Positions 32,263 through 44,089 of a stretch of DNA of 47,962 nucleotides are shown piece by piece. Source of the DNA: Ferrithrix thermotolerans DSM 19514 (GTDB lineage Bacteria; Actinomycetota; Acidimicrobiia; Acidimicrobiales; Ilumatobacteraceae). The stretch covers positions 1 to 47,962 of the forward strand of contig CAMASN010000021.1 in assembly GCA_945861025.1 (NCBI GenBank), given 5' to 3'. The translations under genes were made by a program, and so were the position numbers. Positions within the stretch are counted from its first letter, which is position 1, and each line of letters opens with the position of its first letter. The notes below the pieces were generated by a model, which saw only the letters and a program-made list of their open reading frames with translations, made no database searches and was not told the DNA's origin.

Positions 32263-33099
32263 TCAGCGACGTCGCATCACGAGCATGAAGTGATCACCCA
32301 TGTCACGAAAGAGCGGCCACCTCGCTGTGACGGCATCGAGCGAAACCAATCGCCCGAACATTTTGGGAAACTTCTCGGCCACCTTGTCGAGATACGGCGG
32401 CGGCACAAACAGTGACAGAGATTCGTAGTACTCGACCTGCCACTGATCGGCATCGCCAATCCACTCCCGAGCAAACTCGCGTGGCGTGAAGTAGCGAGTC
32501 CAGATGATGTGGCCGTTCATGCCGACCGGCGTGGACTCACGCTCGAAACGCACCTTGGCCCGCGTGAAGCGACGCTTTCGAACGTAGTGAGCCACTTCCC
32601 ACGGGCAGTATCGGCCGATGACGGTGAACACTGCATAGCCGCCCGGACGGGTGATAGCGGCAAGCGAGGACGCCGTGTGGCCAAGGTCGGGAACACAGTT
32701 GAGCGGGCCAAAGTTTGAGTACGAAAGATCGATCGTGTCAGGGCCGAGGTTGAACTCAGACCCGAGGCGATCGAACTCTTGAGCGCCAACACGCAGAGCC
32801 GTGATCTGGCCAGGCTCGCAGTTGGCGCGAGCGCCAGCGCGCTCGACCATCTCGGGTGACCAATCGGTAGCAAACACATGATGACCGAGTTGCGCGAAAT
32901 GTTGAGCGTCGATGCCCGTGCCGCATCCGATATCGATGAGCGTTGAAGGGTCCTTAAGGAAACCTTCGACCCGCTGCCACACGATGTCGCGCATGCGTTG
33001 GATGAGCGGGTTATTGCCCTGCGGACCGTCGTAGGTTGGCGCCACACTGTCGAAGGCGGCAGCCGTCTCGGCCAACTGATCGGAGATTGGAGGGGTCAT
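32263..33099 (-). CDS. Class I SAM-dependent methyltransferase
   Basis: 278 aa. Motif I is TLIDIGCGTGIDAQHFAQLG, motif II is HHVFATDWSPEMVERA (acidic ribose-binding residue), and the post-motif is DLSYSNFGPLNCVPD. A Rossmann methyltransferase with a C-terminal cap that ends VMRRR. Its ATG overlaps the upstream radical SAM gene (ATGA). Clusters with glycosyltransferases, so methylation of a sugar or polyketide-like acceptor is likely, but the acceptor is unknown. Confidence 0.9.
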   Translation of the reverse strand: MTPPISDQLAETAAAFDSVAPTYDGPQGNNPLIQRMRDIVWQRVEGFLKDPSTLIDIGCGTGIDAQHFAQLGHHVFATDWSPEMVERAGARANCEPGQITALRVGAQEFDRLGSEFNLGPDTIDLSYSNFGPLNCVPDLGHTASSLAAITRPGGYAVFTVIGRYCPWEVAHYVRKRRFTRAKVRFERESTPVGMNGHIIWTRYFTPREFAREWIGDADQWQVEYYESLSLFVPPPYLDKVAEKFPKMFGRLVSLDAVTARWPLFRDMGDHFMLVMRRR

Positions 33100-34631
33100 G
33101 CGTGATTGCCGTTCATCGTGACTTCGACTGATGCTGCGGTGATTGAGACCGTCTCGGCGGCCACTGGAATACGCAACCGAGTTGGGTTCGGGTTACGTTC
33201 GCTTGGCTCTCGCTCGCGCAGCGCAGCCCAAGCAGTAGCGACTCGCTCGCGGTGCTCATCCAACCCAAGTTCGCTGAGCTGTGGGTGAGGCGCCCGGCTG
33301 AGACCGAGATCGCGACGGCGGAGGTCGAGATCGTCGTGCAGGCAGTGGTGGAGCGCTCGATAAAAGCCGGTGGCGTAGGTGCCCGCGAAGATCATTGCGA
33401 GGTCGCCTGAGTCTTGCCAGTTGGCGTGATCGGTGAGATCAGATTTCACCATCTCGTAAAACTTTGTGCCGGGCAACGGGTAGCTCACGCTGACCCCAAT
33501 GTCATCAGGCATCAAATCGGCCACGAGATCGATAGTGGCGCAGATGTCTTCCCATGTCTCGCCCGGGTAGCCGAACTGGATGAAGAAACACGCCCGAACT
33601 CCGTGTTCGCCAAGGCGGCGGCGCGCCTCGCGAATCTCATCGACGGTGATTTCCTTGTCCATCGCATCGAGGACGCGCTGGCTGCCGCTTTCGGCGCCAA
33701 GCCACACCTCTTTGCACTTTGACCGGGCCAAGGCATCGACGGCAACGTCGTTCATCAAATCGCACCGCGACTGAATGGTGAACGGCACTGCGCCACCAGT
33801 GGATTCGATGTGGTCGGCAAACTCGGCGAGCCAGTCGCTGCGCAGACCAAAGATGTCGTCGGCGAACCACACATGATCGGGCGCATGTTGAAACTTGAGT
33901 TGCGTCATCTCATCGGCAACAGCCACGGGACTGCGCATCGAGTAGCGCTGGCCCCAGATTGGCTTGGCGCACCAGTTGCATGAATACGGGCAACCACGCG
34001 TAGACACCATGTTGAGCGAGAACTCGCCATGATGCGAGAGCCATGCGTCGCGGTAGGCACCGATGTCGATGAGGTCTCGCGCTGGCAACCCGAACACGTC
34101 GGGGTGCCGCTCGATTGAGCGGTGACCCGTGCTGGCGATTTCGCCATCGACCAAGATTGCCGAACCGGCCACCTGTTCTAGGGCCATAGAGCGCCCAAGC
34201 CAACGATCGACAATTTCGGCCACGGCATGTTCGCCCTCACCAAGCAGACAGACCTCGGCGCCGGCGCCGAGGTACACCTCGGGATGATCGGTGACATCGG
34301 CACCCGACATCGCGACCTTGCAACCCCGCGCCAGCGCCATGCCCAGCATGGTGATCGCGGCCTCGCGCATGCGGGCCAAACACATCTTCGACAAGAAGTT
34401 GAAGTTGTCTTCGAACAGCACCACCACGCGAGGCTGATGTTGCTCAAGCGCAGCCTCGAAATCGGATTCGTCGGCGGCGAGCATGGCGTCGAAAACGGCT
34501 ACGTCGTATCCCCGCTCGCGGAGCACCGATGCGGCATACAGCGTGGCCAGAGGCGGATACGGCCGCATCTTTGCCTTCTGTTTCGCGTCGAGGTTGAGGT
34601 AGTACGAATGGGCCAGCAACACGTCGCGCAT
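33096..34631 (-). CDS. B12-binding-domain radical SAM protein
   Basis: 511 aa from ATG 34631 (GTG 34643 is the alternative). The N-terminal ~150 residues form a cobalamin-binding Rossmann domain of the BchE/P-methylase type (PYPPLATLYAASVLRERGYD, then VVLFEDNFNFLSKM). Around residue ~210, TRGCPYSCNWCAKPIWG carries the CxxxCxxC [4Fe-4S]/SAM motif. Further TIM-barrel landmarks: HVWFADDIFGLR, EVWLGAESGSQRVLDAMDK, and CFFIQFGYPGETWEDI. Such enzymes methylate unreactive carbon or phosphorus, or catalyse ring formation, using adenosyl radicals and cobalamin. Overlaps the methyltransferase by 4 bp. Confidence 0.92.
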   Translation of the reverse strand: MRDVLLAHSYYLNLDAKQKAKMRPYPPLATLYAASVLRERGYDVAVFDAMLAADESDFEAALEQHQPRVVVLFEDNFNFLSKMCLARMREAAITMLGMALARGCKVAMSGADVTDHPEVYLGAGAEVCLLGEGEHAVAEIVDRWLGRSMALEQVAGSAILVDGEIASTGHRSIERHPDVFGLPARDLIDIGAYRDAWLSHHGEFSLNMVSTRGCPYSCNWCAKPIWGQRYSMRSPVAVADEMTQLKFQHAPDHVWFADDIFGLRSDWLAEFADHIESTGGAVPFTIQSRCDLMNDVAVDALARSKCKEVWLGAESGSQRVLDAMDKEITVDEIREARRRLGEHGVRACFFIQFGYPGETWEDICATIDLVADLMPDDIGVSVSYPLPGTKFYEMVKSDLTDHANWQDSGDLAMIFAGTYATGFYRALHHCLHDDLDLRRRDLGLSRAPHPQLSELGLDEHRERVATAWAALREREPSERNPNPTRLRIPVAAETVSITAASVEVTMNGNHA

Positions 34632-34658
34632 AAAACGAGACACTAACCGACTGAGGCT

Positions 34659-35744
34659 CTAGCCGCGTGAGTAGACGACCGATTGATACGCCTGCTCGAG
34701 CTGCTGAGCGACCGCCTGCCACGTGAGCGTTTGGTTGGCGTGCTTGGCGACGAGCTCGCTTCTCGTTCGTGAGGCAATCCCGATGAGGCGTGCTGCCGCC
34801 GTGGCATCACCGGGGGCAAACGTGCCGATCAATTCGCCGACGATTGAGCGATGCGATGGGATGCCCGTAACCACCGGTACGCAACCCTCGGTGATCGCTT
34901 CAATGAGCGAGTAACCGGATCCTTCGCGCCAACTCGTAGACAGCACGATGTCGGCAGCCTGATACCAACTCGCCATCTCGCTAGCGCTCACCGGATCATG
35001 GATGTGTACATGCGCACCGAGATCTCCTAGGGCAGAGATGGCGGCACGCACCTGTGGTTCGAGTGATCGATCGGTGGCCAGCAGATGCAGATGCGCATTG
35101 GGAACTTCGCTCGCAACCGCCTGCGCGAAAGCAGCGACGGCCGCAAGCGGATCCTTCGAATCGATGAGACGGCCAACCCACAACACAGCGGGGCTGCCCG
35201 CAAGGTGAACCGGCGCCAAGGAACTGACACGGCCGCTTGGCAACGTGCTAGCAGCCTCGAGCACCTCGAAGCATGTAGCGGTTTCGGAAATCATGCGGCG
35301 ATCAATGAACGGCTGGGCCTGGCCGAATAAGGCACCGGTGAAGAGGTAGCCGTCGACAGAGCGACGCACAATGCGATGCGCCAACACCGTGCGCCGATGG
35401 CCCGGCGTCTCGCCATGATGTTGCAGCACAATCGCGGCCGTGCGATGAACCGCCCTGCCCAGACGAAGGTTGAGCCGCGTGAATCCGAACCCATGCACGT
35501 GCACGACATCGGGGCTCCACTGCGCAACCTCGCGAACCAAAGCAGAGTCGGTCCTCGTGAAGCGATACGTCACACCATCTCGCTGAACAACAGCTGGTGC
35601 GAGCGTGGTTCGACACGCCACCATCACGTCGAGATCGGCGTGCTCGCTCAGCGCTTTTGCTTGCAAGACCACCGACGGCCAACCATCGAGCGTTTGCTCG
35701 GGATCAGCGCTGGTTGCTGGGGGCATCACGATGGCGACGCGCAT
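34659..35744 (-). CDS. Glycosyltransferase family 4
   Basis: 361 aa from ATG 35744, only 2 nt after the upstream TGA; the 21-codon upstream extension overlaps the previous gene and is rejected. GT-B fold: N-terminal MRVAIVMPPATSADPEQTLDG, VVHVHGFGFTRLNLRLGRA, then AVLWVGRLIDSKDPLAAVAA and the donor motif WREGSGYSLIEAITEGCVPV (ExxxxxxxE). It transfers a sugar from a nucleotide-sugar to a lipid- or glycan-linked acceptor at the cytoplasmic membrane face. Probably translated together with the nucleotidyltransferase and radical SAM genes. Confidence 0.9.
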   Translation of the reverse strand: MRVAIVMPPATSADPEQTLDGWPSVVLQAKALSEHADLDVMVACRTTLAPAVVQRDGVTYRFTRTDSALVREVAQWSPDVVHVHGFGFTRLNLRLGRAVHRTAAIVLQHHGETPGHRRTVLAHRIVRRSVDGYLFTGALFGQAQPFIDRRMISETATCFEVLEAASTLPSGRVSSLAPVHLAGSPAVLWVGRLIDSKDPLAAVAAFAQAVASEVPNAHLHLLATDRSLEPQVRAAISALGDLGAHVHIHDPVSASEMASWYQAADIVLSTSWREGSGYSLIEAITEGCVPVVTGIPSHRSIVGELIGTFAPGDATAAARLIGIASRTRSELVAKHANQTLTWQAVAQQLEQAYQSVVYSRG

Positions 35745-35746
35745 TG

Positions 35747-36760
35747 TCACCGTCGTCCGATGAGGCGGCGCACCGCTGCCGAGACACTGCGCGAGCCATG
35801 GGGCCACACCATCTGGTCAACTACTGCGACGCGTTCGCGCACCGACTGTGTAAAGGCCAGACGCCAGCGGAACGACGTGCGCGTGTTGGGGTCGCGCAAC
35901 ACGTCTGCAGGCGATGCGTTGCCAAGCATGCGACGCGCAGCGCGTGGCAGCCGCTCGATCTCGCGTGACACCACTGCATCGGGCAACAGGCCAGGCATCA
36001 GTTGCTGCACCAACCACAGGCCCGGCGCGGTAAGGCGCGGATCGGTGAGCGCGATGAGTTGATTCGCGCGCTGCCAATCGATGGGTCGCCGTGCGCACCA
36101 CCACACATCGACCACGTTCACGGATCGAACCTCGGCACGCACCACAGTTGAGGCGAGGTGACCCAACACGTGAACCGTGAGCGCCTCGTGGTCGAACGGC
36201 ATCGACTCAACAGCGAATCCGCGCACTGTGTAGCCATGCAGAAACTCGATCCACCCCGGGTGCACCTCGACGCGACCGTTGTGATCGGCCGACTCGCCGT
36301 CGGTGCGGCCCACGCCACCGTTGCCCCACGAAAGAAACGTGTCTTCGTAGTCGGTTGAATCGATTGCCCGAAGCCCACCTGCGATGAGCGCAGCGGCGGC
36401 TTGTGATCGCTGTGCGGCGGGCACGATGAGATCGATGTCAGCCATGGGCCTCGTACCCTCCATGCCCCACACGCCCTGCAGCAGCGCTGCGCCTTTCACA
36501 GCAACCGCCGGCACTGCGTGCTGCTTGAGCGCTGCCATCACCGTGGGTAGTAACTCACCAAAACGGCGCACGCGCTCACTCACTTGTTCACGTTGCTCGG
36601 CGACGAATACCACGACATCGGGCGAAGCGTCGCCAAACAAGTCGAGCGAGCCAGCAAGCGCTGTGAGTCCAGTGGCGAGTCCCGTGAGTTGCACCTGCTC
36701 GAGCGACCATGGCTCAAGGCGTGCCGGTTCACCCTCGAGTCGTGCGAGTACCGCCTGCAA
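35747..36760 (-). CDS. Nucleotidyltransferase-fold protein (NTP_transf_5 type)
   Basis: 337 aa with a TTG start at 36760; an in-frame stop lies just upstream and no ATG/GTG precedes the conserved part. The key segment is AVAVKGAALLQGVWGMEGTR, then PMADIDLIVP, an Asp-x-Asp metal site typical of the uncharacterised nucleotidyltransferase family PF14907. This family often sits beside HPr-kinase-like, asparagine-synthase-like and glycosyltransferase genes in surface-polysaccharide or lasso-peptide clusters. Here it pairs with a GT4 and faces an HprK-like kinase. Start is the weak point; family call moderately firm. Confidence 0.82.
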   Translation of the reverse strand: MQAVLARLEGEPARLEPWSLEQVQLTGLATGLTALAGSLDLFGDASPDVVVFVAEQREQVSERVRRFGELLPTVMAALKQHAVPAVAVKGAALLQGVWGMEGTRPMADIDLIVPAAQRSQAAAALIAGGLRAIDSTDYEDTFLSWGNGGVGRTDGESADHNGRVEVHPGWIEFLHGYTVRGFAVESMPFDHEALTVHVLGHLASTVVRAEVRSVNVVDVWWCARRPIDWQRANQLIALTDPRLTAPGLWLVQQLMPGLLPDAVVSREIERLPRAARRMLGNASPADVLRDPNTRTSFRWRLAFTQSVRERVAVVDQMVWPHGSRSVSAAVRRLIGRR

Positions 36761-36783
36761 TAACTCAAGTTGTCGGAGGCGAA

Positions 36784-36814
36784 GGTCACTAGTGATGGGC
36801 GAACACTAGTCACC
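36784..36814. promoter_or_regulatory. Inverted repeat with two ACTAGT cores in a divergent promoter region
   Basis: GGTCACTAGTG (36784-36794) and CACTAGTCACC (36804-36814) form an 11-bp inverted repeat with one mismatch. Each half carries the palindrome ACTAGT, spaced 17 bp apart. It lies in the 91 bp between the divergent nucleotidyltransferase and GT4 genes, so it is a candidate operator for the cluster. Confidence 0.45.
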
Positions 36815-36851
36815 TCACGGGGCAAGCGTCTCCGCTCTGCCAGACTGTGTC

Positions 36852-38027
36852 GTGCGCGTAGTGCTGGTGGTGCCGGGAGGTGTGGATCAACCCGGATCTG
36901 ATCGGGTGATTCCGTTCATTCACGATCTGATTCAGCGCCTCGCTGTCGAGAACACGGTCACCATCATCGCCATCGGACACAATCCAGAGCCAGGCGAATG
37001 GACGCTGTACGACTGCGACGTCATCAACGTGTCCATCGGCAATCACAGCCGCAGCGATGTGTTACGAGCCGTGCGCGAAGCAGTTCGCATAGCGGGCCGC
37101 GGTGGTCGAGCCTGTCGGCCCGATGTGGTGCATGGATTGTGGGCCGGAGTTACAGGCCTCGCTGCCGCAGCTATCGGCCGCCGATATCGGGTGCCATCGG
37201 TGGTCACGTTGTGCGGCGGCGAACTCGCCGCGATTCCCGAAATTGGCTACGGCGGAGGCCTCACGGGCGGGGGCAAGCTGCTGGCTCGAACAGCACTGCG
37301 CCTACCCACCGCAACTACGGCAGCAACCGAGTGGATGCGAGCGCACGCTGCTGCAACGGGCGCACCTATTGACGAGCTCATCCCGCTCGGCGCAGATCGC
37401 GCGCGGTTTCTCCCGGCGGCAGCACCAGCCACGGGCGCGCACATTGTTCAGGTCGCCAGCCTCAACGCAGTGAAAGATCAATACCTCGCGCTGAACGCCT
37501 TCGCGATCGTGCTCGCAGCGCGACCCGATGCCACGCTCACGCTGGCCGGAGTAGACACGATGCATGGCAAACACTCCTCCCTCGCTGAGGCCCTTGGCAT
37601 TGCGAACGCAGTCAGATTTGTTGGTTTCGTGCAGCCCGACGATCTGTGCGAGCTCTACCAATCAGCCGCAGTTCATCTCAACACGTCATGGCACGATGCC
37701 GGTCCATTGGCGGTTGTCGAGGCTGCGTTGTGCGGGGTGTGCACCGTGGGCACCCGCGTGGGGCACGTGTCAGATTTTGCGTCGTTGCCGGAGCCTGCAG
37801 CAGTTGCGGTCGATCACAACGCCCAAGCGGTTGCTGCAGGCGTGCTGCGACTCTTGAACGACTCCACCGCACGCGCCGCCATCGCCGAACGAGCGCACGC
37901 GTGGGCGTCGCTGCACAACGCCGACGCAACTGCAGCAGCCTTCGAGACGCTCTACCGCAGGCTTGCAGCCAGATCGTCGAGAGCCTCGGCCGCGGCCAAC
38001 GGCGAGAGCCCCCGCCGCAACACATAG
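36852..38027 (+). CDS. Glycosyltransferase family 4
   Basis: 391 aa, GTG start. GT-B architecture: N-terminal MRVVLVVPGGVDQPGSDRV, DVVHGLWAGVTGLAAAAIGR, then IVQVASLNAVKDQYLALNAF and the C-terminal SWHDAGPLAVVEAALCGVCT donor site. The last ~17 residues form a basic tail (SSRASAAANGESPRRNT) that is read from within the 3' end of the convergent HprK-like gene (76-bp overlap), perhaps after loss of an earlier stop. A cytosolic or membrane-associated retaining glycosyltransferase; substrates unknown. Confidence 0.9.
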   Translation: MRVVLVVPGGVDQPGSDRVIPFIHDLIQRLAVENTVTIIAIGHNPEPGEWTLYDCDVINVSIGNHSRSDVLRAVREAVRIAGRGGRACRPDVVHGLWAGVTGLAAAAIGRRYRVPSVVTLCGGELAAIPEIGYGGGLTGGGKLLARTALRLPTATTAATEWMRAHAAATGAPIDELIPLGADRARFLPAAAPATGAHIVQVASLNAVKDQYLALNAFAIVLAARPDATLTLAGVDTMHGKHSSLAEALGIANAVRFVGFVQPDDLCELYQSAAVHLNTSWHDAGPLAVVEAALCGVCTVGTRVGHVSDFASLPEPAAVAVDHNAQAVAAGVLRLLNDSTARAAIAERAHAWASLHNADATAAAFETLYRRLAARSSRASAAANGESPRRNT

Positions 38028-38872
38028 GTGGGTCGGTCCAACAACCCGTCGGCCCATTGTGACGAGATGTGCTCGCGCTCGGTGGGTAGCGACGCCGCCC
38101 AGAACCGCTCGGTCGCTTCGGACTGGCTGACCGGCAGGAGCGAAAACTCGGTGTCGGGATCGAGCAACACAACTGCGTGCACTTCTTGCAACGCCACCTG
38201 CTGCGACTCGGGCGGATAGATGGCAATCTTGCAACCCTCTTCAGAGGTGTGCGGCACCGGTTCGATGTCGCGAATCTCATCGAAACGAGCCGCAGCGTCT
38301 TGGGTCATCAACATTCGCCATGGGTAGCCGGCGAAGACCCCCGCCGGCTGTTGTACAGCGGCGTACAACCAATCGTCGCTGGTGATTCCCATGCCGCGAC
38401 GCAGACATGAATACGTCAACGTGCTTTTGCCAGCACCCGATGGACCGCGCAGCATCAACCCGATTCCGTCACGCGAAACCAGCGCGCTATGCACCGCTAC
38501 GAGCCGCTCGTGATGAACGTGCATCGCTGTGAACGCCGACTCGACAAACAAACGCACACCGTCGTCAATAGGCAACAACGATTGGGCCAGCGAGATCTCG
38601 CCAATGCCCGCAGCAAAGTTCACGACCGCGTGGGATGTGCCGCAGCGCACCGTGATTTGCTCGGCATTGATGTCGGCGGCCACCGATGGCCACCCCGGAT
38701 CGCTGGCACCCGCATCGTGCACGCTCACATTGAGATGCAACGAGCCGCCGATTGCGAGACCCTCGGGATAGCGACCAAGGCCGCGCTGAACGGCCGCAAT
38801 CACTTCTTGCGATTGGGTTTGCACCACCAGTTCGCTACCGAACGGGTAAATGCGAAGGATCGGCAAAGACAT
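37952..38872 (-). CDS. HPr kinase-related (HprK-like) ATPase
   Basis: 306 aa from ATG 38872. The P-loop is LMLRGPSGAGKSTLTYSCLR and the following GITSDDWLYAA matches the acidic DD motif of HprK-type kinases. The N-terminal ~150 residues are beta-rich and unrelated to HprK's regulatory domain. HprK homologues of this kind ('HprK-related kinase A') occur in exopolysaccharide and lasso-peptide loci, where some phosphorylate peptides. Its 3' end overlaps the GT4 gene by 76 bp on the opposite strand. No HPr or PTS gene is nearby, so classical carbon-catabolite signalling is unlikely. Confidence 0.85.
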   Translation of the reverse strand: MSLPILRIYPFGSELVVQTQSQEVIAAVQRGLGRYPEGLAIGGSLHLNVSVHDAGASDPGWPSVAADINAEQITVRCGTSHAVVNFAAGIGEISLAQSLLPIDDGVRLFVESAFTAMHVHHERLVAVHSALVSRDGIGLMLRGPSGAGKSTLTYSCLRRGMGITSDDWLYAAVQQPAGVFAGYPWRMLMTQDAAARFDEIRDIEPVPHTSEEGCKIAIYPPESQQVALQEVHAVVLLDPDTEFSLLPVSQSEATERFWAASLPTEREHISSQWADGLLDRPTYVLRRGLSPLAAAEALDDLAASLR

Positions 38873-38951
38873 CGCCCGAACGGTACCCAACACTTTGCAC
38901 TCTCATACGGTCGAGCAAGACACCTATCATCACGAACAGCGAAGGGAAGCC

Positions 38952-40253
38952 ATGACCACGATCGATCTCAGCACGTATGACCCGATGAATCGCGAGATTC
39001 AACAGTGCCCCTTTCCGCACTACGCAGCTCTTCGCGAACATGGCCCCTTGTTCCGCCACGAGCCCACCGGGATGTACTTCGTGTCTCGTTTAGAGACGAT
39101 GCGCGTTGTCCTGCGAGACACCGAAACATTCTCATCGAAATCCTCGAATGCGGGCACCGCTCCCCCGCCCGAACTCATGGCCGAGCTGGTTGCCTTGTCA
39201 CGTCAGGGCGTACCACGAGTAGACACCATGCTCACCCTTGACCCACCCGCTCACACCCGCTACCGCAAGACCGTGGCTGGCGCTTTCAACGTGCGGCGCA
39301 TTCAGGGACTTGCGCCGCGAATTCGCGAGCTCGCCGACGAACTCATCAATGCGTTCCCCAACCACGGCAACGTCGACTTCATGAATGCGTTTGCGATTCC
39401 GCTGCCCGTGCGGGTGATCTCGCACATGCTCAACGTGCCCGCCGAGCGAGAGGCCGACATCAAGCGTTGGTCCGACGATGCAGTGGCTTCGCTGGGCACC
39501 CGCCTCACACCCGAGCGCGTTGTCGAAGCAGCGCGCGGTGTGCTCGAGTCGCAGTTGTTCTTCATCGCCCAATTTGCCGACCGACGCCAGAATCCGCAAG
39601 ACGACTTCACCTCCGATCTCGTGAACGCCACGTTCGAAGACGCCGACGGAACCACCCGAAATCTCACCGATGCCGAGATGTTTTCGATTGTGCAACAACT
39701 GATGGTGGCCGGCAACGAAACCACAACAAAGTTGTTTAGCGAAGGCATGAAACTGCTGCTCGAGAATGCTCAGTGGTGGCAGCGAATCGTGAGTGAACCA
39801 GCGTTGATCCCTTCGGTCATCGAAGAAGTGCTCCGCATGGCCAGCCCCAACCAGGGCCTGTTTCGCGTGGTCACCCGAGACACCGAACTCGAGGGAGTGC
39901 CACTAAAAAAAGGCGCTCGACTGTGGGTGATGTTCGGTGCGGCCAATCGCGACGAGCGAACGTTCGCCGAGGCCGAAACGTTCAACCCCGAGCGCGACAA
40001 CCTGTCGCAACACATTGCATTCGGTTTCGGGGCGCACTTCTGCATTGGCGCACCGTTGTCCAGGCTTGAGGCGCGCATCGGATTCGAAGCACTCTCCGAA
40101 CGGCTCGCGCATGTCGAGTTTGCGCCCGGCAACACGTTCGAATACGAGCCCAGCTACATCCTGCGTGGCCTCAAGAATCTCGATCTCATCGTGCAGCGAC
40201 CTGCCGCCGAGTTGGTCGAGCCCGGCAGCGCAGCGCCGTCCGCAACTCAATAG
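38952..40253 (+). CDS. Cytochrome P450, third copy
   Basis: 433 aa from ATG 38952 (GGGAAG just upstream); the extension to 38850 is antisense to the HprK-like gene and rejected. I-helix LMVAGNETTTKLFSEG, ExxR EEVLRMASP, heme loop FGFGAHFCIGAPLSRLE. The opening NREIQQCPFPHYAALREHGP is typical of soluble actinobacterial class I P450s. No redox partner is encoded in the window. Followed by palindrome copy 3 and converging with a hydrolase. Confidence 0.95.
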   Translation: MTTIDLSTYDPMNREIQQCPFPHYAALREHGPLFRHEPTGMYFVSRLETMRVVLRDTETFSSKSSNAGTAPPPELMAELVALSRQGVPRVDTMLTLDPPAHTRYRKTVAGAFNVRRIQGLAPRIRELADELINAFPNHGNVDFMNAFAIPLPVRVISHMLNVPAEREADIKRWSDDAVASLGTRLTPERVVEAARGVLESQLFFIAQFADRRQNPQDDFTSDLVNATFEDADGTTRNLTDAEMFSIVQQLMVAGNETTTKLFSEGMKLLLENAQWWQRIVSEPALIPSVIEEVLRMASPNQGLFRVVTRDTELEGVPLKKGARLWVMFGAANRDERTFAEAETFNPERDNLSQHIAFGFGAHFCIGAPLSRLEARIGFEALSERLAHVEFAPGNTFEYEPSYILRGLKNLDLIVQRPAAELVEPGSAAPSATQ

Positions 40254-40266
40254 CGCGCCGCCAACT

Positions 40267-40296
40267 CACCCACCCCCAGCCCACCCACCCCCAGCC
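40267..40296. repeat. Perfect 15-bp tandem repeat (x2), C-rich leader of palindrome copy 3
   Basis: CACCCACCCCCAGCC is repeated twice without mismatch, 11 bp before the palindrome. It parallels the 15-16-bp tandem repeats that precede copy 1. Confidence 0.85.
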
Positions 40297-40307
40297 CTCA
40301 ACATTGC

Positions 40308-40364
40308 TGCATGGGCGCGCTTTGGGACAGCAGTTGATTCCGCCTCCCAAACCGCGCCCATGCA
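40308..40364 (+). repeat. Dispersed palindromic element, copy 3
   Basis: 57 bp. 20-nt arms (TGCATGGGCGCG then CTTTGGGA, and the complement) with one mismatch and an enlarged 17-nt loop, which still begins CAGCAGTTG. It lies in the 202 bp between the convergent P450 and hydrolase genes. Confidence 0.88.
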
Positions 40365-40377
40365 AAAGGGATTGCGG

Positions 40378-40445
40378 CGGATAGTGAGGGTGACGGCCGC
40401 GGAGGGTGAGTGCGGATAGTGAGGGCGGCGGAGGGTGACGGCCGG
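40378..40445. repeat. Imperfect G-rich direct repeats after palindrome copy 3
   Basis: CGGATAGTGAGGG occurs at 40378 and 40413, and CGGAGGGTGA at 40400 and 40429, interleaved with GGTGACGGCCG. This is a duplicated, degenerate G-rich block. Confidence 0.65.
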
Positions 40446-40455
40446 GGCGGATGGA

Positions 40456-42054
40456 TCAGCCGGGGTTGCCGATGGTCGACGCTTCGGCGACCGCCTTCAG
40501 CTGCTTGGCATCGGCAGCGAGCAGTGCACCCGACGCAACGGCGCTATCGACTGCGGCATTCCACTTGCTCACGAACGTGGCGTGATCGGGATAGGCCGCG
40601 GCAAGCTGCGCCGCATCGAACGGAACCGTGGTGCCGAACAATCCGCAAAAGCTAGTGCCGGTCTGACCGAAGCCTGAGAGCTTGGCGAGCGGCACATCTA
40701 CATGCGGTGTACGAATACCACCCGTTGCGTTACCTGCCGGGTCGAGCACAACGCCGGTCTTGTCGGCGTTGAGCGGGATGCGCGGCATGATTGGCGGCAA
40801 CGTGCCTTGCGAAACCCACGCGTTCAACGCAGCGATTGCACTGCGCAGCACATACGTGTGCGGGCCGGCATTGATTCCGAGATCGCACGTGATGACCCCG
40901 CCGTAGATCGAGTTGTTCGGCGTGAGCAGCGCAGCGAACAGTGCTGCATCGCCAGCACCTGAGCCATCGTCGGAGTCACCAATACCCAGGCTGTACAGAT
41001 CGGCGTGCGCAGTGCCAGGGACTTCCCATGCGCGAACAAAATCGGTGTCGGGCTGCTCGGCGCGGCCATAGCCAAGACGGTCACCCAGCATGTCGGTCTC
41101 TGACAAGAAGTTGAGCACCGGCACGCGAAGATCGGAGCGGATGAGCGTTGGGTCTGGTGCAGCGATATCTGGCAGAGGTGTCTGCGACAGCGCAGCGCCA
41201 ACAGCCCCGCGGCTGTGGATGAGGAATCCGTCGTACACGTTCGCAATCGAGGCAATGGCGTTGACATAGGTGTTCAAGCGGAATGCCGACTGCGACTCTC
41301 CGAATGCAATCACGTGCTTGGGTTCGAGACCGCCGAGCACTTGCGCTGCTTGGGTACGCACTACGGCTCCGGCTTGGCTGAACATGTCGTACGAATAGCT
41401 GTCGCCAGGGTGGCTGAGCGCTGCGTAGCGATCAGGATCTGCAGCCTTCAACGCCAGCGCTGCGCCAAGCGCGTTGCCGCCCCCAACGATGCCCACTGAC
41501 TGCGCCGACACGCCGACCCATGTCCAACCAGATCGGATGAGCTCGGTGTGAGCGAAGCTCCAGTCGGGGGCGTTGTCGAATCCGGCGGTCACGTTGAACC
41601 ACTCGACCGCAACGCTGCCGTTGAACTTCGCGCCGTCGATGGGGCGACGAACAACGATGCGTGTTGTGAACGGCGCTGGTGTGCCTTCGTTAATCGTCCA
41701 GTTGCCATCGCTGCTCAGAGGCGTGGCCGACGAGTACGACGCAGCGTTGCCCGACAAGAAAAACTCTTCTTGGGTGTAGCCAACAGTCGCGAGATCAAGT
41801 CCGCCAATTCCCATGACGATGCCACCCTTGCCGCCAGTGATGGGACCCGTGACAGTGGCTGCGCCGACAGCATCGGGCACGAAGGCGGGCCGCGCCACGG
41901 TTGTGGTGGGTGCGTCAGTAGCAGCCGAGGTTGATGCAACCGTGGCGGACGCCGCGGTGTCGCCACCGCTCGAGCCCGACGATGAACACGATGAGACGCC
42001 CAAAAGCGTTACAGCGAAAAAGAATGCGAGTGCGGGCCGCGTTACGTGGCTCAT
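40456..42054 (-). CDS. Secreted lipoprotein, alpha/beta-hydrolase domain-containing
   Basis: 532 aa from ATG 42054 with AGGGGG about 5 nt upstream. The signal peptide ends in a lipobox (FFAVTLLGVSSCSSS), followed by a Ser/Thr/Ala-rich linker. Catalytic region: VIAFGESQSAFRLNTYVNAI contains the nucleophile GESQS, VPVLNFLSETDMLGD supplies the acid, and VPGTAHADLY the His. This matches the alpha/beta hydrolase domain family (tannase-like fold, often called Abhydrolase_10). Membrane-anchored outside the cell, it probably hydrolyses an ester or lactone before uptake. Substrate unknown. Confidence 0.88.
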   Translation of the reverse strand: MSHVTRPALAFFFAVTLLGVSSCSSSGSSGGDTAASATVASTSAATDAPTTTVARPAFVPDAVGAATVTGPITGGKGGIVMGIGGLDLATVGYTQEEFFLSGNAASYSSATPLSSDGNWTINEGTPAPFTTRIVVRRPIDGAKFNGSVAVEWFNVTAGFDNAPDWSFAHTELIRSGWTWVGVSAQSVGIVGGGNALGAALALKAADPDRYAALSHPGDSYSYDMFSQAGAVVRTQAAQVLGGLEPKHVIAFGESQSAFRLNTYVNAIASIANVYDGFLIHSRGAVGAALSQTPLPDIAAPDPTLIRSDLRVPVLNFLSETDMLGDRLGYGRAEQPDTDFVRAWEVPGTAHADLYSLGIGDSDDGSGAGDAALFAALLTPNNSIYGGVITCDLGINAGPHTYVLRSAIAALNAWVSQGTLPPIMPRIPLNADKTGVVLDPAGNATGGIRTPHVDVPLAKLSGFGQTGTSFCGLFGTTVPFDAAQLAAAYPDHATFVSKWNAAVDSAVASGALLAADAKQLKAVAEASTIGNPG

Positions 42055-42151
42055 GGATCCCCCTGATGATCGATTGGATCGCGACATCAACGAGGCGAAC
42101 CGGCTCTGAGCCTTACATATGCAAGAGACCAGATCGCTAGCTCGGCGCCAA

Positions 42152-42988
42152 TTACCAGGTCGCTGACTTCTCGAGACGGTTGACCGATGGGCGCAGGATG
42201 AGCGCGTAGGTGTCGGCAATTGCGGGCTCGCGATGATCCTTCTGAGCAGCCAATCGCGCCGGATCGGCAACCACTGCCATAAATGCAGCCTTGCTTGGGA
42301 ATGCGTTGAACCGCACCTGATCCCATTGGCGGCCATCGCCCATGATGGTTCCCTGCACCTGATACCAACCGTTCACGCGCGCACCGTGCGGCACCGCAAC
42401 GGCGCCCGCAGCGTTTTGGTACGCCACCATGTCGACCAATCCGCCATCGACATATTTGATGACATGCATGACCACGACAGGACCATCGTCTTCGGTGGCT
42501 GGGTGCGGCACATCGGCCCATGACGGCTGCTCGATGGGCTTTGGCACATCGATTGGGGTGCAGCCCATCACAATGGTTTCGGCCATGCCGGCTTCCTTGT
42601 GAACGTGCTTCTCTTTGAAGTCGGTGCGTGACTGCATGTCGATGAACGAGCGACCTGTTGGATAGCGCACTACGGCAATGCGATCCCACATCGGGGCATC
42701 GCCGAGCAATTGCGTATCGACTTCGGCGAGGAACACCATCGACGCGCCAATGGCTGCCAGCGGACCGACCGGGGCATAGAGGTCGTCGGCTTCGCGACCG
42801 CTGATGTTGAGCTCGGTACCATCGGTGTAGTCGGCCTTCTCGCGGTACTTCATTAAGTTGACCATGTAGACCGGACCGTCTTCGTCGGCAGGTGTGGTGG
42901 CCAAACGAATCGCGTATTCGGTATCGACTTGGCCGTAGCGAACGGCGGCGTGGCGCTGTGATGAACCGGCGTCGGGAGTGTTCGTCAT
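42152..42988 (-). CDS. Duplicated dimeric alpha-beta barrel protein (DUF1330/NIPSNAP-like)
   Basis: 278 aa with GAGGA about 5 nt before the ATG. Two ferredoxin-like halves can be seen: GPVYMVNLMKYREKADYTDG to the central DAPMWDRIAVVRYPTGRSFI, and GPVVVMHVIKYVDGG to DQVRFNAFPSKAAFMAVVAD. Each has the strand-helix pattern with a conserved GR/W...V(R)(Y/F) edge typical of DUF1330/NIPSNAP proteins. Such folds bind small hydrophobic ligands or act as monooxygenase or isomerase partners. The gene is divergent from an aldo/keto reductase across a clear palindromic operator. Confidence 0.75.
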   Translation of the reverse strand: MTNTPDAGSSQRHAAVRYGQVDTEYAIRLATTPADEDGPVYMVNLMKYREKADYTDGTELNISGREADDLYAPVGPLAAIGASMVFLAEVDTQLLGDAPMWDRIAVVRYPTGRSFIDMQSRTDFKEKHVHKEAGMAETIVMGCTPIDVPKPIEQPSWADVPHPATEDDGPVVVMHVIKYVDGGLVDMVAYQNAAGAVAVPHGARVNGWYQVQGTIMGDGRQWDQVRFNAFPSKAAFMAVVADPARLAAQKDHREPAIADTYALILRPSVNRLEKSATW

Positions 42989-43055
42989 GGTGTCCTCTGA
43001 AGTCGTTGAGTCGATGGCTTGCGGCTCATCGAAGTTGGTAGCCCAAACCTAGTAT

Positions 43056-43074
43056 TTGTCATCGGCGATGACAA
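43056..43074. promoter_or_regulatory. Palindromic operator TTGTCATC-GGC-GATGACAA
   Basis: A perfect 8-3-8 inverted repeat midway in the 126 bp between divergent genes, with TTGTCA-like -35 possibilities on each strand and an AT-rich edge. The size and symmetry suit a TetR- or GntR-type repressor that would control both genes. No cognate regulator gene is adjacent. Confidence 0.6.
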
Positions 43075-43103
43075 TTAATACGCGGCGCTCGATCGATGGC
43101 GGC

Positions 43104-43109
43104 CATAAT
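43104..43109 (+). promoter_or_regulatory. Candidate leaderless -10 box (CATAAT)
   Basis: CATAAT ends 5 nt before the ATG of the aldo/keto reductase and no Shine-Dalgarno sequence is present, so the transcript is probably leaderless. The operator at 43056-43074 lies just upstream. Confidence 0.45.
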
Positions 43110-43114
43110 GCGTC

Positions 43115-44089
43115 ATGCGTTATCGACGACTCGGCAGGACAGCACTACAGGTCAGCGAACTGTGCCTTGGCACGATGAACTTCGGACCCCAAACCTCGGA
43201 GGCCGACTCGCACACCATCATGGATCGTGCGCTCGAGTTAGGCATCAACTTCCTCGACACCGCCAATCGTTACGGCGGACACCTCGGCGTTGGCGCCACC
43301 GAAGAAATCGTTGGCAACTGGTTCGCGCTCGGTGGCGCTCGGCGCGAGAAGGTTGTGCTGGCCACCAAGTTGTACGGACCAATGACCGATTGGCCAAACG
43401 ATGGTCGCCTCTCGGCTCGTCACATTCGCGCCGCGTGCGACGCCAGCCTGCGTCGCCTGCAAACCGATCACATCGATCTCTTCCAGATGCATCACGTGGA
43501 TCGCACAGCGCCGTGGGACGAAATCTGGCAGGCGATGGAAACCCTCACCCAACAGGGCAAGATCATCTACGTAGGCAGTAGCAACTTCGCTGGTTGGCAC
43601 ATCGCCAGAGCAAACGAAGCTGCGAGTCGCCGCGGATTCCTCGGCCTCATCAGCGAGCAGAGTCACTACAACTTGTTGGTTCGCACGATCGAACTCGAAG
43701 TGCTGCCGGCATGTATCGAATACGGCGTCGGGGTCATCCCATGGAGTCCATTGTCGGGTGGCCTATTGGGCGGCGTGTTGGGCAACGAAGACACCGCCCG
43801 ACGCCAATCGCCGCAAGCACTCAAGCGCATCGCCAAGATTGGCCCGCAGCTCGAGAAGTGGGAAGCGCTGTGCGGACAACTCGGCGAGCAGCCGGCCGCC
43901 GTTGCATTGGCGTGGTTGTTGCATCAGCCTGGTGTCACGTGTCCGATTATCGGGCCACGCACCAGCGAGCAGCTCGACGGCGCTTCGCTTCGTGCGCTCG
44001 ACATCTCACTCGATGCCGATGCACTCGCTGCCATCAACGCAATCTTCCCTGGCCCAGGAGGCTCAGCGCCCGAGGCGTATTCGTGGTGA
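43115..44089 (+). CDS. Aldo/keto reductase
   Basis: 324 aa. Opening MRYRRLGRTALQVSELCLG, then GINFLDTANRYGGHLGVGAT (catalytic Asp and Tyr), KVVLATKLYG (Lys), DLFQMHHVDR (His) and the NADPH-binding GPRTSEQLDGA. It reduces carbonyls to alcohols with NADPH in the cytosol. An LGxMNFGP motif and its length place it in the AKR family close to YhdN/MocA-type enzymes. Seven bp from the convergent monooxygenase gene. Substrate unknown. Confidence 0.95.
   Translation: MRYRRLGRTALQVSELCLGTMNFGPQTSEADSHTIMDRALELGINFLDTANRYGGHLGVGATEEIVGNWFALGGARREKVVLATKLYGPMTDWPNDGRLSARHIRAACDASLRRLQTDHIDLFQMHHVDRTAPWDEIWQAMETLTQQGKIIYVGSSNFAGWHIARANEAASRRGFLGLISEQSHYNLLVRTIELEVLPACIEYGVGVIPWSPLSGGLLGGVLGNEDTARRQSPQALKRIAKIGPQLEKWEALCGQLGEQPAAVALAWLLHQPGVTCPIIGPRTSEQLDGASLRALDISLDADALAAINAIFPGPGGSAPEAYSW

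Follow-up and report, generated by a model that had tools for sequence, protein, structure and literature searches.

A six-gene cassette in the window

The window analyzed here is a stretch of 47,962 nucleotides (contig CAMASN010000021.1, positions 1 to 47,962, of assembly GCA_945861025.1) from Ferrithrix thermotolerans DSM 19514, a member of the family Ilumatobacteraceae. A sequence-only reading of this DNA had singled out six genes within positions 32263-38872, here called the cassette. It had assigned them to an HprK-like kinase, an NTP_transf_5 nucleotidyltransferase, two GT4 glycosyltransferases, a B12-dependent radical S-adenosylmethionine (SAM) enzyme and a methyltransferase. We compared the list of open reading frames (ORFs) with a Pfam scan of their translations, including those of the flanking genes. 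All six ORFs were present at the coordinates given, and the families named agreed with the Pfam results, as follows.

MTa: 32263..33099, minus strand, class I SAM-dependent methyltransferase (Pfam PF13489, 53.5 bits, and PF13649)
rS1: 33096..34631, minus strand, B12-binding radical SAM enzyme (Pfam B12-binding and Radical_SAM)
GTa: 34659..35744, minus strand, GT4-type glycosyltransferase (Pfam Glyco_trans_1_4/Glycos_transf_1)
NTP5: 35747..36760, minus strand, NTP_transf_5 protein of predicted nucleotidyltransferase fold with KG and D-x-D motifs (PF14907)
GTb: 36852..38027, plus strand, GT4-type glycosyltransferase, divergent from NTP5 (Pfam Glycos_transf_1, 79 bits)
HprK: 37952..38872, minus strand, HprK-like P-loop kinase (Hpr_kinase_C, PF07475, below cut-off, and predicted fold)

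The ORF of rS1 opens at 34643, and the ATG at 34631 agrees with the relatives. Likewise, the GTa ORF extends to 35807 with a conserved, likely start at 35744, and the HprK ORF opens at 38893 with a likely start at 38872. In rS1, the B12-binding domain scored 37.3 bits (cut-off 32.1) and the Radical_SAM domain 65.8 bits, and NTP5 reached 59.4 bits against PF14907, above the cut-off of 31.2. The HprK-like protein scored 27.0 bits against PF07475, under the Pfam cut-off of 33.3, and was also far under the NCBIfam cut-offs for HprK_rel_A and HprK_rel_B; we accepted the assignment despite these scores, since it is supported by the predicted fold described below.

The genes are tightly packed. The widest gap within the cassette is 91 bp, MTa and rS1 overlap by 4 bp, and the tail-to-tail genes GTb and HprK share their last 76 bp. 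The G+C content of the cassette is 62.0%, versus 61.3% for the rest of the window.

Conservation of the cassette within the Ilumatobacteraceae

We surveyed 150 family genomes for the cassette. Strong matches were defined by an E value below 1e-80 for NTP5 and of 1e-60 or better for rS1, and genomes with weak matches (G023, G052 and G131 for NTP5; G023, G042 and G088 for HprK) were left out of the counts. Strong NTP5 matches occurred in 11 of the 150 genomes, and rS1 was found in exactly the same 11. The kinase was strong in 11 genomes as well, namely ten of the NTP5/rS1 genomes and G140; the NTP5/rS1 genome without an HprK match, G037, carries its cassette at a contig end.

We then fetched ten cassette loci from relatives (L018-L027). 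GTb was divergent from NTP5-GTa, and GTa adjoined NTP5, in all ten (the GTa gene of L020 is cut by the contig end), and rS1 followed GTa in nine, the contig of L020 stopping earlier. This order, with GTb divergent from NTP5-GTa-rS1, was held across three genera of the family. HprK lay tail to tail with GTb in 6/10 loci, and a full-length MTa followed rS1 in 4/10, with a fragment in one more. The kinase seemed at first to be missing in L020, L021 and L026; it is actually found at a second locus of those genomes.

A class-wide search with NTP5 (E limit 1e-10) matched only the window's own genome, which is 95.6% complete, among 296 genomes, and a phylum-wide search (E limit 1e-15) matched three of 296, i.e., this genome and two others in which NTP5 has a different context. 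A plasmid search with rS1 at E 1e-60 gave no match. The identical sets of 11 genomes for NTP5 and rS1, and the order kept in the ten relatives, indicate that the association is more than chance. The six genes thus form a real conserved unit.

Related loci in other phyla and their polysaccharide setting

The rS1 protein also has relatives beyond the family (approximately 48-58% identity), among them proteins of Acidobacteriota, Chloroflexota, Bacteroidota and Pseudomonadota. We scanned named genomes with rS1 and kept the best 80 of 555 confirmed loci; many of these lie on short contigs, so that absences are weak evidence. Profiles for HprK, NTP5, an amidohydrolase and a further radical SAM enzyme, rS2, were built partly from these 80 loci, so their source loci match by construction. 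Among the 80 loci, these profiles detected HprK 20 times and NTP5 17 times. All HprK and NTP5 matches fell within 29 loci of a single rS1 clade in a tree made by a quick method, compared to 0/51 elsewhere. The fork of this clade had a support of 100, and the sub-fork uniting Acidimicrobiia and the proteobacterial module a support of 91. Four of the 29 loci (L038, L039, L043 and L098) match contigs of the family's own G120, G037, G130 and G098 in length and cassette position; we treated them as the same genomes and thus as not independent; they were omitted from the tree and counted with its Acidimicrobiia clade.

The most complete counterparts were nine loci from Xanthomonas dyei (one), Dyella (two) and Rhodanobacter (six), hereafter the Xanthomonas group. 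HprK, rS1, NTP5, GTb, GTa and an ABC exporter were present in 9/9 of them, the amidohydrolase and a second methyltransferase (MTb) in eight (L065 ends earlier), and rS2 in eight (it is missing in Xanthomonas). MTa was present in all six loci whose stretch or extension reaches that far, and the window MTa is 50-52% identical to the methyltransferase of five loci of this group. The N-terminal VVPGGVD...RVIP pattern of the window GTb is common to the GTb of Rhodanobacter. In eight genomes of the group searched at E 1e-5, we found one NTP_transf_5 gene each, inside the cassette.

Other lineages carry parts of this set. The kinase, rS1, MTa, rS2 and NTP5 were found in two alphaproteobacterial metagenome-assembled genomes (L078 and L099) and in Caulobacter (L045), and the kinase, both glycosyltransferases, rS1, MTa and rS2 in a locus of Gemmatimonadota (L084), without NTP5 within the stretch. 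Loci of Chloroflexota, Bacteroidota and most Acidobacteriota are rS1-rS3-MTa-rS2-MTb-amidohydrolase variants without NTP5; the acidobacterial exceptions are L107, with HprK and NTP5, and L108, with HprK, and weak HprK matches lie at the far locus edge in L046, L066 and L083. The wider pathway thus adds B12 radical SAM enzymes, methyltransferases, an amidohydrolase and an ABC exporter in other bacteria, which the sequence-only reading had missed. In L046, L057, L069 and L083, three B12 radical SAM genes form a run with two or three methyltransferase genes and the gene of a deaminase-like amidohydrolase, whose invariant His and Asp residues lie where a metal would probably be bound; a SPASM-type radical SAM ORF is nearby. 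The proteins of this run were below the NCBIfam cut-offs where scanned.

To follow the cassette further, extended regions were fetched for four loci of the Xanthomonas group (L121-L124, from Xanthomonas, Dyella and Rhodanobacter). All four showed one order of genes, for FdtA, a hexapeptide transferase, a protein of no clear family, a GNAT protein, a DegT aminotransferase, a flippase, a GT2 glycosyltransferase and a membrane protein without an assigned family. In the joining stretches (L117, L113, L116, L102 and L123), these genes are followed on the same strand by Wzz, MTa, the amidohydrolase and MTb. The Pfam scans covered the L121 set, the GT2 and Wzz proteins of L123 and the Wzz proteins of L117 and L113, and the other copies were assigned by tblastn (44-76% identity). 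No polymerase was recognized by Pfam in this polysaccharide region. FdtA, a DegT aminotransferase and an acyltransferase are the usual set for a 3-amino-3,6-dideoxyhexose, and we take the FdtA, DegT and hexapeptide transferase genes here to be of the Fuc3NAc/Qui3NAc type. Moreover, a PF13440 flippase and a GT4 gene lie near the cassette in Caulobacter, and an Anaerolineales genome carries a flippase and GT4 genes close to its rS1 operon.

Since the cassettes of Xanthomonas, Dyella and Rhodanobacter run on into a surface polysaccharide locus in 4/4 extended regions, a glycoconjugate is favored as the product. This part of the earlier proposal of a methylated, phosphorylated glycoconjugate is therefore likely; that the product would be methylated and phosphorylated is suggested by the enzyme classes. 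From this glycan setting, our best guess for the acceptor is a surface glycan or a lipid-linked oligosaccharide, and we put about even confidence in the six genes being a branch of a cross-phylum tailoring pathway for such a molecule.

Predicted folds and motifs of the kinase, NTP5 and rS1

The structural model of the HprK-like protein had a predicted local distance difference test (pLDDT) score of 93. It matched HPr kinase with a Z score of 14.9 and a root-mean-square deviation (rmsd) of 2.3 over 130 aligned residues, and Escherichia coli phosphoenolpyruvate carboxykinase (PEPCK) with a Z score of 14.8 and an rmsd of 5.2-5.3 over 262-263 residues. A His-Lys-Asp-Asp set is reported in a review to be essential in lasso peptide kinases (PMC9266682). 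Here, the His, the Lys and the second Asp were identical in 16/16 alignment rows, and the first Asp was D or E. By its modeled fold, its Walker A P-loop and its kept catalytic residues, the protein is placed with the HPr kinase-like members of the PEPCK-HprK superfamily, and it is a predicted kinase.

For NTP5 (model pLDDT 88), nucleotidyltransferase folds occupied ranks 1 to 17 with Z scores of 8.7-10.8, including MenT1 (10.8 over 165 residues) and ANT(2'')-Ia (9.7 over 164 residues). Foldseek alone gave a best E value of 3.3e-3 for this model and nothing at 0.001 or better, and a sequence search of the PDB with NTP5 gave no credible match. The Lys, the Gly and both Asp residues of the KG and D-x-D motifs were identical in 18/18 rows. 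NTP5 is thus a predicted nucleotidyltransferase-fold protein with conserved catalytic residues.

Finally, rS1 is a B12-type radical SAM enzyme by its domains and its cysteine motif, C214-x3-C218-x2-C221, which was invariant in 9/9 alignment rows; the use of cobalamin is predicted. Its best NCBIfam score was 106.6 bits, to TIGR04072 with a cut-off of 360, among the best 25 of 29 matches. Among the matches listed it reached no equivalog cut-off, which places it in a subfamily unnamed there.

These comparisons bear on the main rival to the glycan reading, a glycosylated small molecule of an aminocyclitol-like or nucleoside-like type. In such a pathway, the radical SAM enzymes, the amidohydrolase and the methyltransferases would make the core, the GT4 enzymes would glycosylate it, HprK and NTP5 would phosphorylate and nucleotidylate it, and the ABC transporter would export it. 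Indeed, the closest PDB sequence match of rS1, and its nearest solved structure, is AprD4 of apramycin biosynthesis (E 9.5e-21), the NTP5 model resembles the aminoglycoside nucleotidyltransferase ANT(2''), the wider clusters encode the deaminase-like amidohydrolase with two or three methyltransferases, and the distribution in 11/150 genomes is patchy. However, the resemblance to AprD4 and ANT(2'') goes no further than the superfamily, the window version has no amidohydrolase, and for a small molecule one would not expect the cassettes of the Xanthomonas group and Caulobacter to lie in a glycan-locus setting. We consider this explanation possible, if rather improbable.

The NCBIfam results also raise the modification of a glycolipid or membrane lipid, for example of an isoprenoid or cyclitol headgroup that is altered by the B12 radical SAM enzyme, glycosylated and phosphorylated. 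In NCBIfam, rS1 comes closest to lipid-type B12 radical SAM enzymes (TIGR04072, "lipid biosynthesis," and HpnJ), with all scores far under the cut-off, and the top scores of the ABC transporter are to CydD and MsbA, also under the cut-off. Nevertheless, the window rS1 scores for TIGR04072 and HpnJ are approximately 3.4 and 5.7 times under their cut-offs, and no lipid-synthesis gene was recognized in the cassettes examined, so that we judge a lipid substrate to be unlikely.

Search for lasso peptide machinery

The HprK and NTP5 families also act together on a lasso peptide: PsmK and PsmN, of the same two families, modify pseudomycoidin. A lasso-type ribosomally synthesized and posttranslationally modified peptide (RiPP), with HprK phosphorylating and NTP5 glycosylating a peptide from an unseen precursor gene, was therefore considered. 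We searched 30 stretches, comprising the window, the ten cassettes of relatives, six second or remnant loci and 13 loci of other phyla. The PqqD profile and the B2 and asparagine synthase (AsnB) queries were built from two other actinobacterial loci, L128 and L129, which match by construction. No credible match to PqqD, B2 or asparagine synthase was found in these 30 stretches, whole genomes not being covered. The best PqqD score (E 0.052) came from the strand opposite to rS1 in the window, and a further PqqD-like ORF of L129, outside the profile, was matched at E 7e-13.

Eight small ORFs in the gaps and flank of the window had no Pfam match, and the PqqD control did match. Scanning of the cassette proteins and the small ORFs, with no internal gap wider than the 91 bp given above, left no precursor candidate in the window cassette, although a precursor gene may lie at a distance. 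The 547-bp region flanking MTa is alignable in parts, with L018 over two pieces and with L019 over one short piece of 75% identity. The Xanthomonas locus has gaps of 160-434 bp, in which small ORFs were listed but not searched.

The two other actinobacterial NTP5 loci of the phylum-wide search both carry PqqD genes. L128, which is the best NTP5 match of that search beyond the family, is a lasso-type locus that also contains an asparagine synthase gene, B2 and a short precursor-like ORF, and this speaks for the peptide explanation. In L129, an NTP_transf_5 gene with two Pfam-confirmed PqqD genes lies beside an ORF whose start resembles a chain-length determinant, which Pfam left unconfirmed; this locus perhaps links peptide and glycan uses of NTP5.

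Given the lack of PqqD, B2 and asparagine synthase matches, the small ORFs without Pfam matches and the tight gene packing, a RiPP is quite improbable for the window, for which this explanation is largely refuted. These results agree with the earlier statement that PqqD, asparagine synthase and a precursor are lacking in the window. The lasso peptide link drawn in the sequence-only reading thus holds for the HprK/NTP5 pair only, the peptide-specific parts tested for having not been found.

Flanking genes, second loci and a probable remnant

The flanks of the cassette differ by genus, with a cytochrome P450 gene in the genus of the window and other genes elsewhere.

P450: 38952..40253, plus strand, cytochrome P450 gene flanking the cassette, divergent from HprK (Pfam p450)

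The P450 ORF opens at 38850, and the start at 38952 is a guess. The gene adjoins HprK in both other cassette genomes fetched from this genus (L018 and L019) and is absent from the fetched cassette loci of the other two genera; it is probably outside the cassette. A block of genes for the P450, an alpha/beta hydrolase (PF20091), a protein without a family and an aldo-keto reductase spans 38850-44089 in the window. It is retained next to the cassette in L019, and in L018 up to the point where the contig ends.

In the two other genera, a gene labeled FWPT adjoins the cassette in 7/8 loci, and a mutase-like gene lies on the opposite side in four loci. The FWPT protein (232 residues; L025:566-1261; in the window's genome, G000:C15:51093-51770) is highly conserved and has no Pfam match. 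It has invariant H-x-D and later H residues, a pattern resembling a 2-oxoglutarate oxygenase triad. FWPT was dropped as a pathway acceptor or enzyme, being present in 102/150 family genomes, mostly without the cassette.

In G018, G053 and G130, the kinase is found at a second locus beside a further radical SAM gene (rS3), an MTa-like gene and a zinc-ribbon methyltransferase gene, and the same rS3 locus occurs without the kinase in G098 and G120. These second loci are L136-L140, with HprK in L136, L137 and L138 only. Their rS3 is 53-56% identical to an acidobacterial rS3. The rS1/rS3/MTa set, which is one gene run in Acidobacteriota and Chloroflexota, is thus split in two in these genomes of the family. 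The position of HprK directly beside rS3 in G018, G053 and G130 ties the kinase and radical SAM steps together. Zinc-ribbon methyltransferase homologues were also found elsewhere, in G087, G078, G130 and on contig C1 of the window's genome (G000); they were dropped as pathway loci, tblastn having detected no cassette gene beside them except for a weak methyltransferase match.

In G140 (L141), HprK lies between FWPT and ArsB-like genes and a mutase-like gene, a methylmalonyl-coenzyme A mutase relative by sequence inspection; this is a probable remnant of a lost cassette. The solitary kinase of G140, and its location at another locus in G018, G053 and G130, would fit a chance association of neighbors of unrelated function. 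Against this stand the identical genome sets of NTP5 and rS1, the gene order kept across genera despite different flanks and the recurrence of the same set in Proteobacteria, and we regard mere chance as very improbable indeed. The neighborhood comparison proposed with the sequence-only reading thus showed that the genes stay together in three genera of the Ilumatobacteraceae and in Proteobacteria, which refutes the notion that they are never conserved together.

Proposed pathway

For the tailoring of a surface glycan or lipid-linked oligosaccharide, we propose the following sequence of steps. The enzyme rS1, with rS3 or rS2 in some relatives, would act on a sugar or sugar-like unit and alter one of its carbon positions, and MTa would methylate the unit. 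The HprK-like kinase would phosphorylate a hydroxyl of the rS1-modified unit, and NTP5 would put a nucleotidyl group or, like PsmN in pseudomycoidin, a glycosyl group onto the phosphate. GTa and GTb would add sugars, before or after the NTP5 step, and export would be by the ABC exporter, as in the Xanthomonas group, or by a flippase. Such a pathway would end in a glycan cap or branch that is methylated and contains phosphate. Phosphorylation, elaboration of the phosphate, glycosylation and methylation of an rS1-remodeled acceptor are inferred here from enzyme classes, motifs, folds and the PsmK/PsmN precedent. More specifically, and only tentatively, the HprK-family kinase and the NTP_transf_5 protein might cap a sugar rebuilt by B12 radical SAM enzymes through a phosphodiester linkage (a phosphoglycosyl cap); we think this somewhat doubtful, and the pair would be the first of lasso type to act on a glycan and not on a peptide.

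Several observations weigh against the glycan reading. No flippase or Wzz was recognized beside the cassette in the window and the other loci of Acidimicrobiia, the genomes as wholes not having been searched, and in the Xanthomonas group, the adjoining polysaccharide genes could be neighbors and not the source of the substrate. HprK and NTP5 are just approximately 18-29% identical between the family and other phyla. MTa is absent beside rS1 in L021, L022 and L025 and fragmentary in L026, and G140 retains HprK without NTP5 or rS1. Moreover, nothing in the window's genome apart from rS1 itself matched rS2 or rS3, and the amidohydrolase lies beside the cassette in 0/11 cassette genomes, with weak matches elsewhere in G078 only. 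Lacking rS2, rS3 and an adjacent amidohydrolase, the window's pathway may therefore yield a different or simpler product.

Comparison with known systems

The closest precedent for the kinase/nucleotidyltransferase pair is that of pseudomycoidin. As described in two reviews (PMC9266682 and PMC8498205), this pair phosphorylates a serine, after which one or two hexoses are placed on the phosphate; the reviewers left possible a nucleotidylation followed by the action of a host glycosyltransferase. In these accounts, the known substrates of such a kinase/nucleotidyltransferase pair are lasso peptides only. The cassette resembles PsmK/PsmN, and the kinases PadeK and ThcoK, in having an HprK-family kinase with His-Lys-Asp-Asp and a nucleotidyltransferase-family partner, a likeness drawn from their description, and its Xanthomonas-group version also has an ABC exporter. 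In contrast to PsmK/PsmN, the cassette has no detected precursor, PqqD/B1, B2 or asparagine-synthase-like cyclase, and it contains a B12 radical SAM enzyme, a methyltransferase and two GT4 enzymes, with a glycan setting in the Xanthomonas group. The PqqD loci L128 and L129 share the NTP_transf_5 family with the cassette, which differs in having no detected PqqD, asparagine synthase or B2.

The cassette likewise continues into a polysaccharide locus of the Wzz/flippase kind in all four extended regions, whereas such genes were not seen adjacent to it in Acidimicrobiia. To our knowledge, HprK, NTP5 and B12 radical SAM enzymes are not standard parts of surface polysaccharide loci. A similar idea is found in the WbdD-type capping of O antigen, in which a phosphate and a methyl group are placed on the glycan end; WbdD has a kinase of another fold, whereas an HprK-type kinase and separate enzymes are present here. 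With AprD4, TIGR04072, HpnJ and BchE, rS1 shares the B12-binding and radical SAM architecture, but it is far under the NCBIfam equivalog cut-offs listed.

We found no description of this gene combination in the openly accessible papers searched. The compact, conserved set, without recognizable peptide machinery, is carried by named Rhodanobacter, Dyella and Caulobacter isolates, which makes the question of its substrate testable, and the cassette could reveal a new class of phosphate-containing glycans and new B12 radical SAM chemistry on sugars. Compared with the systems above, we rate the enzyme classes and the kinase/nucleotidyltransferase pairing as known and their combination and setting as new and conserved.

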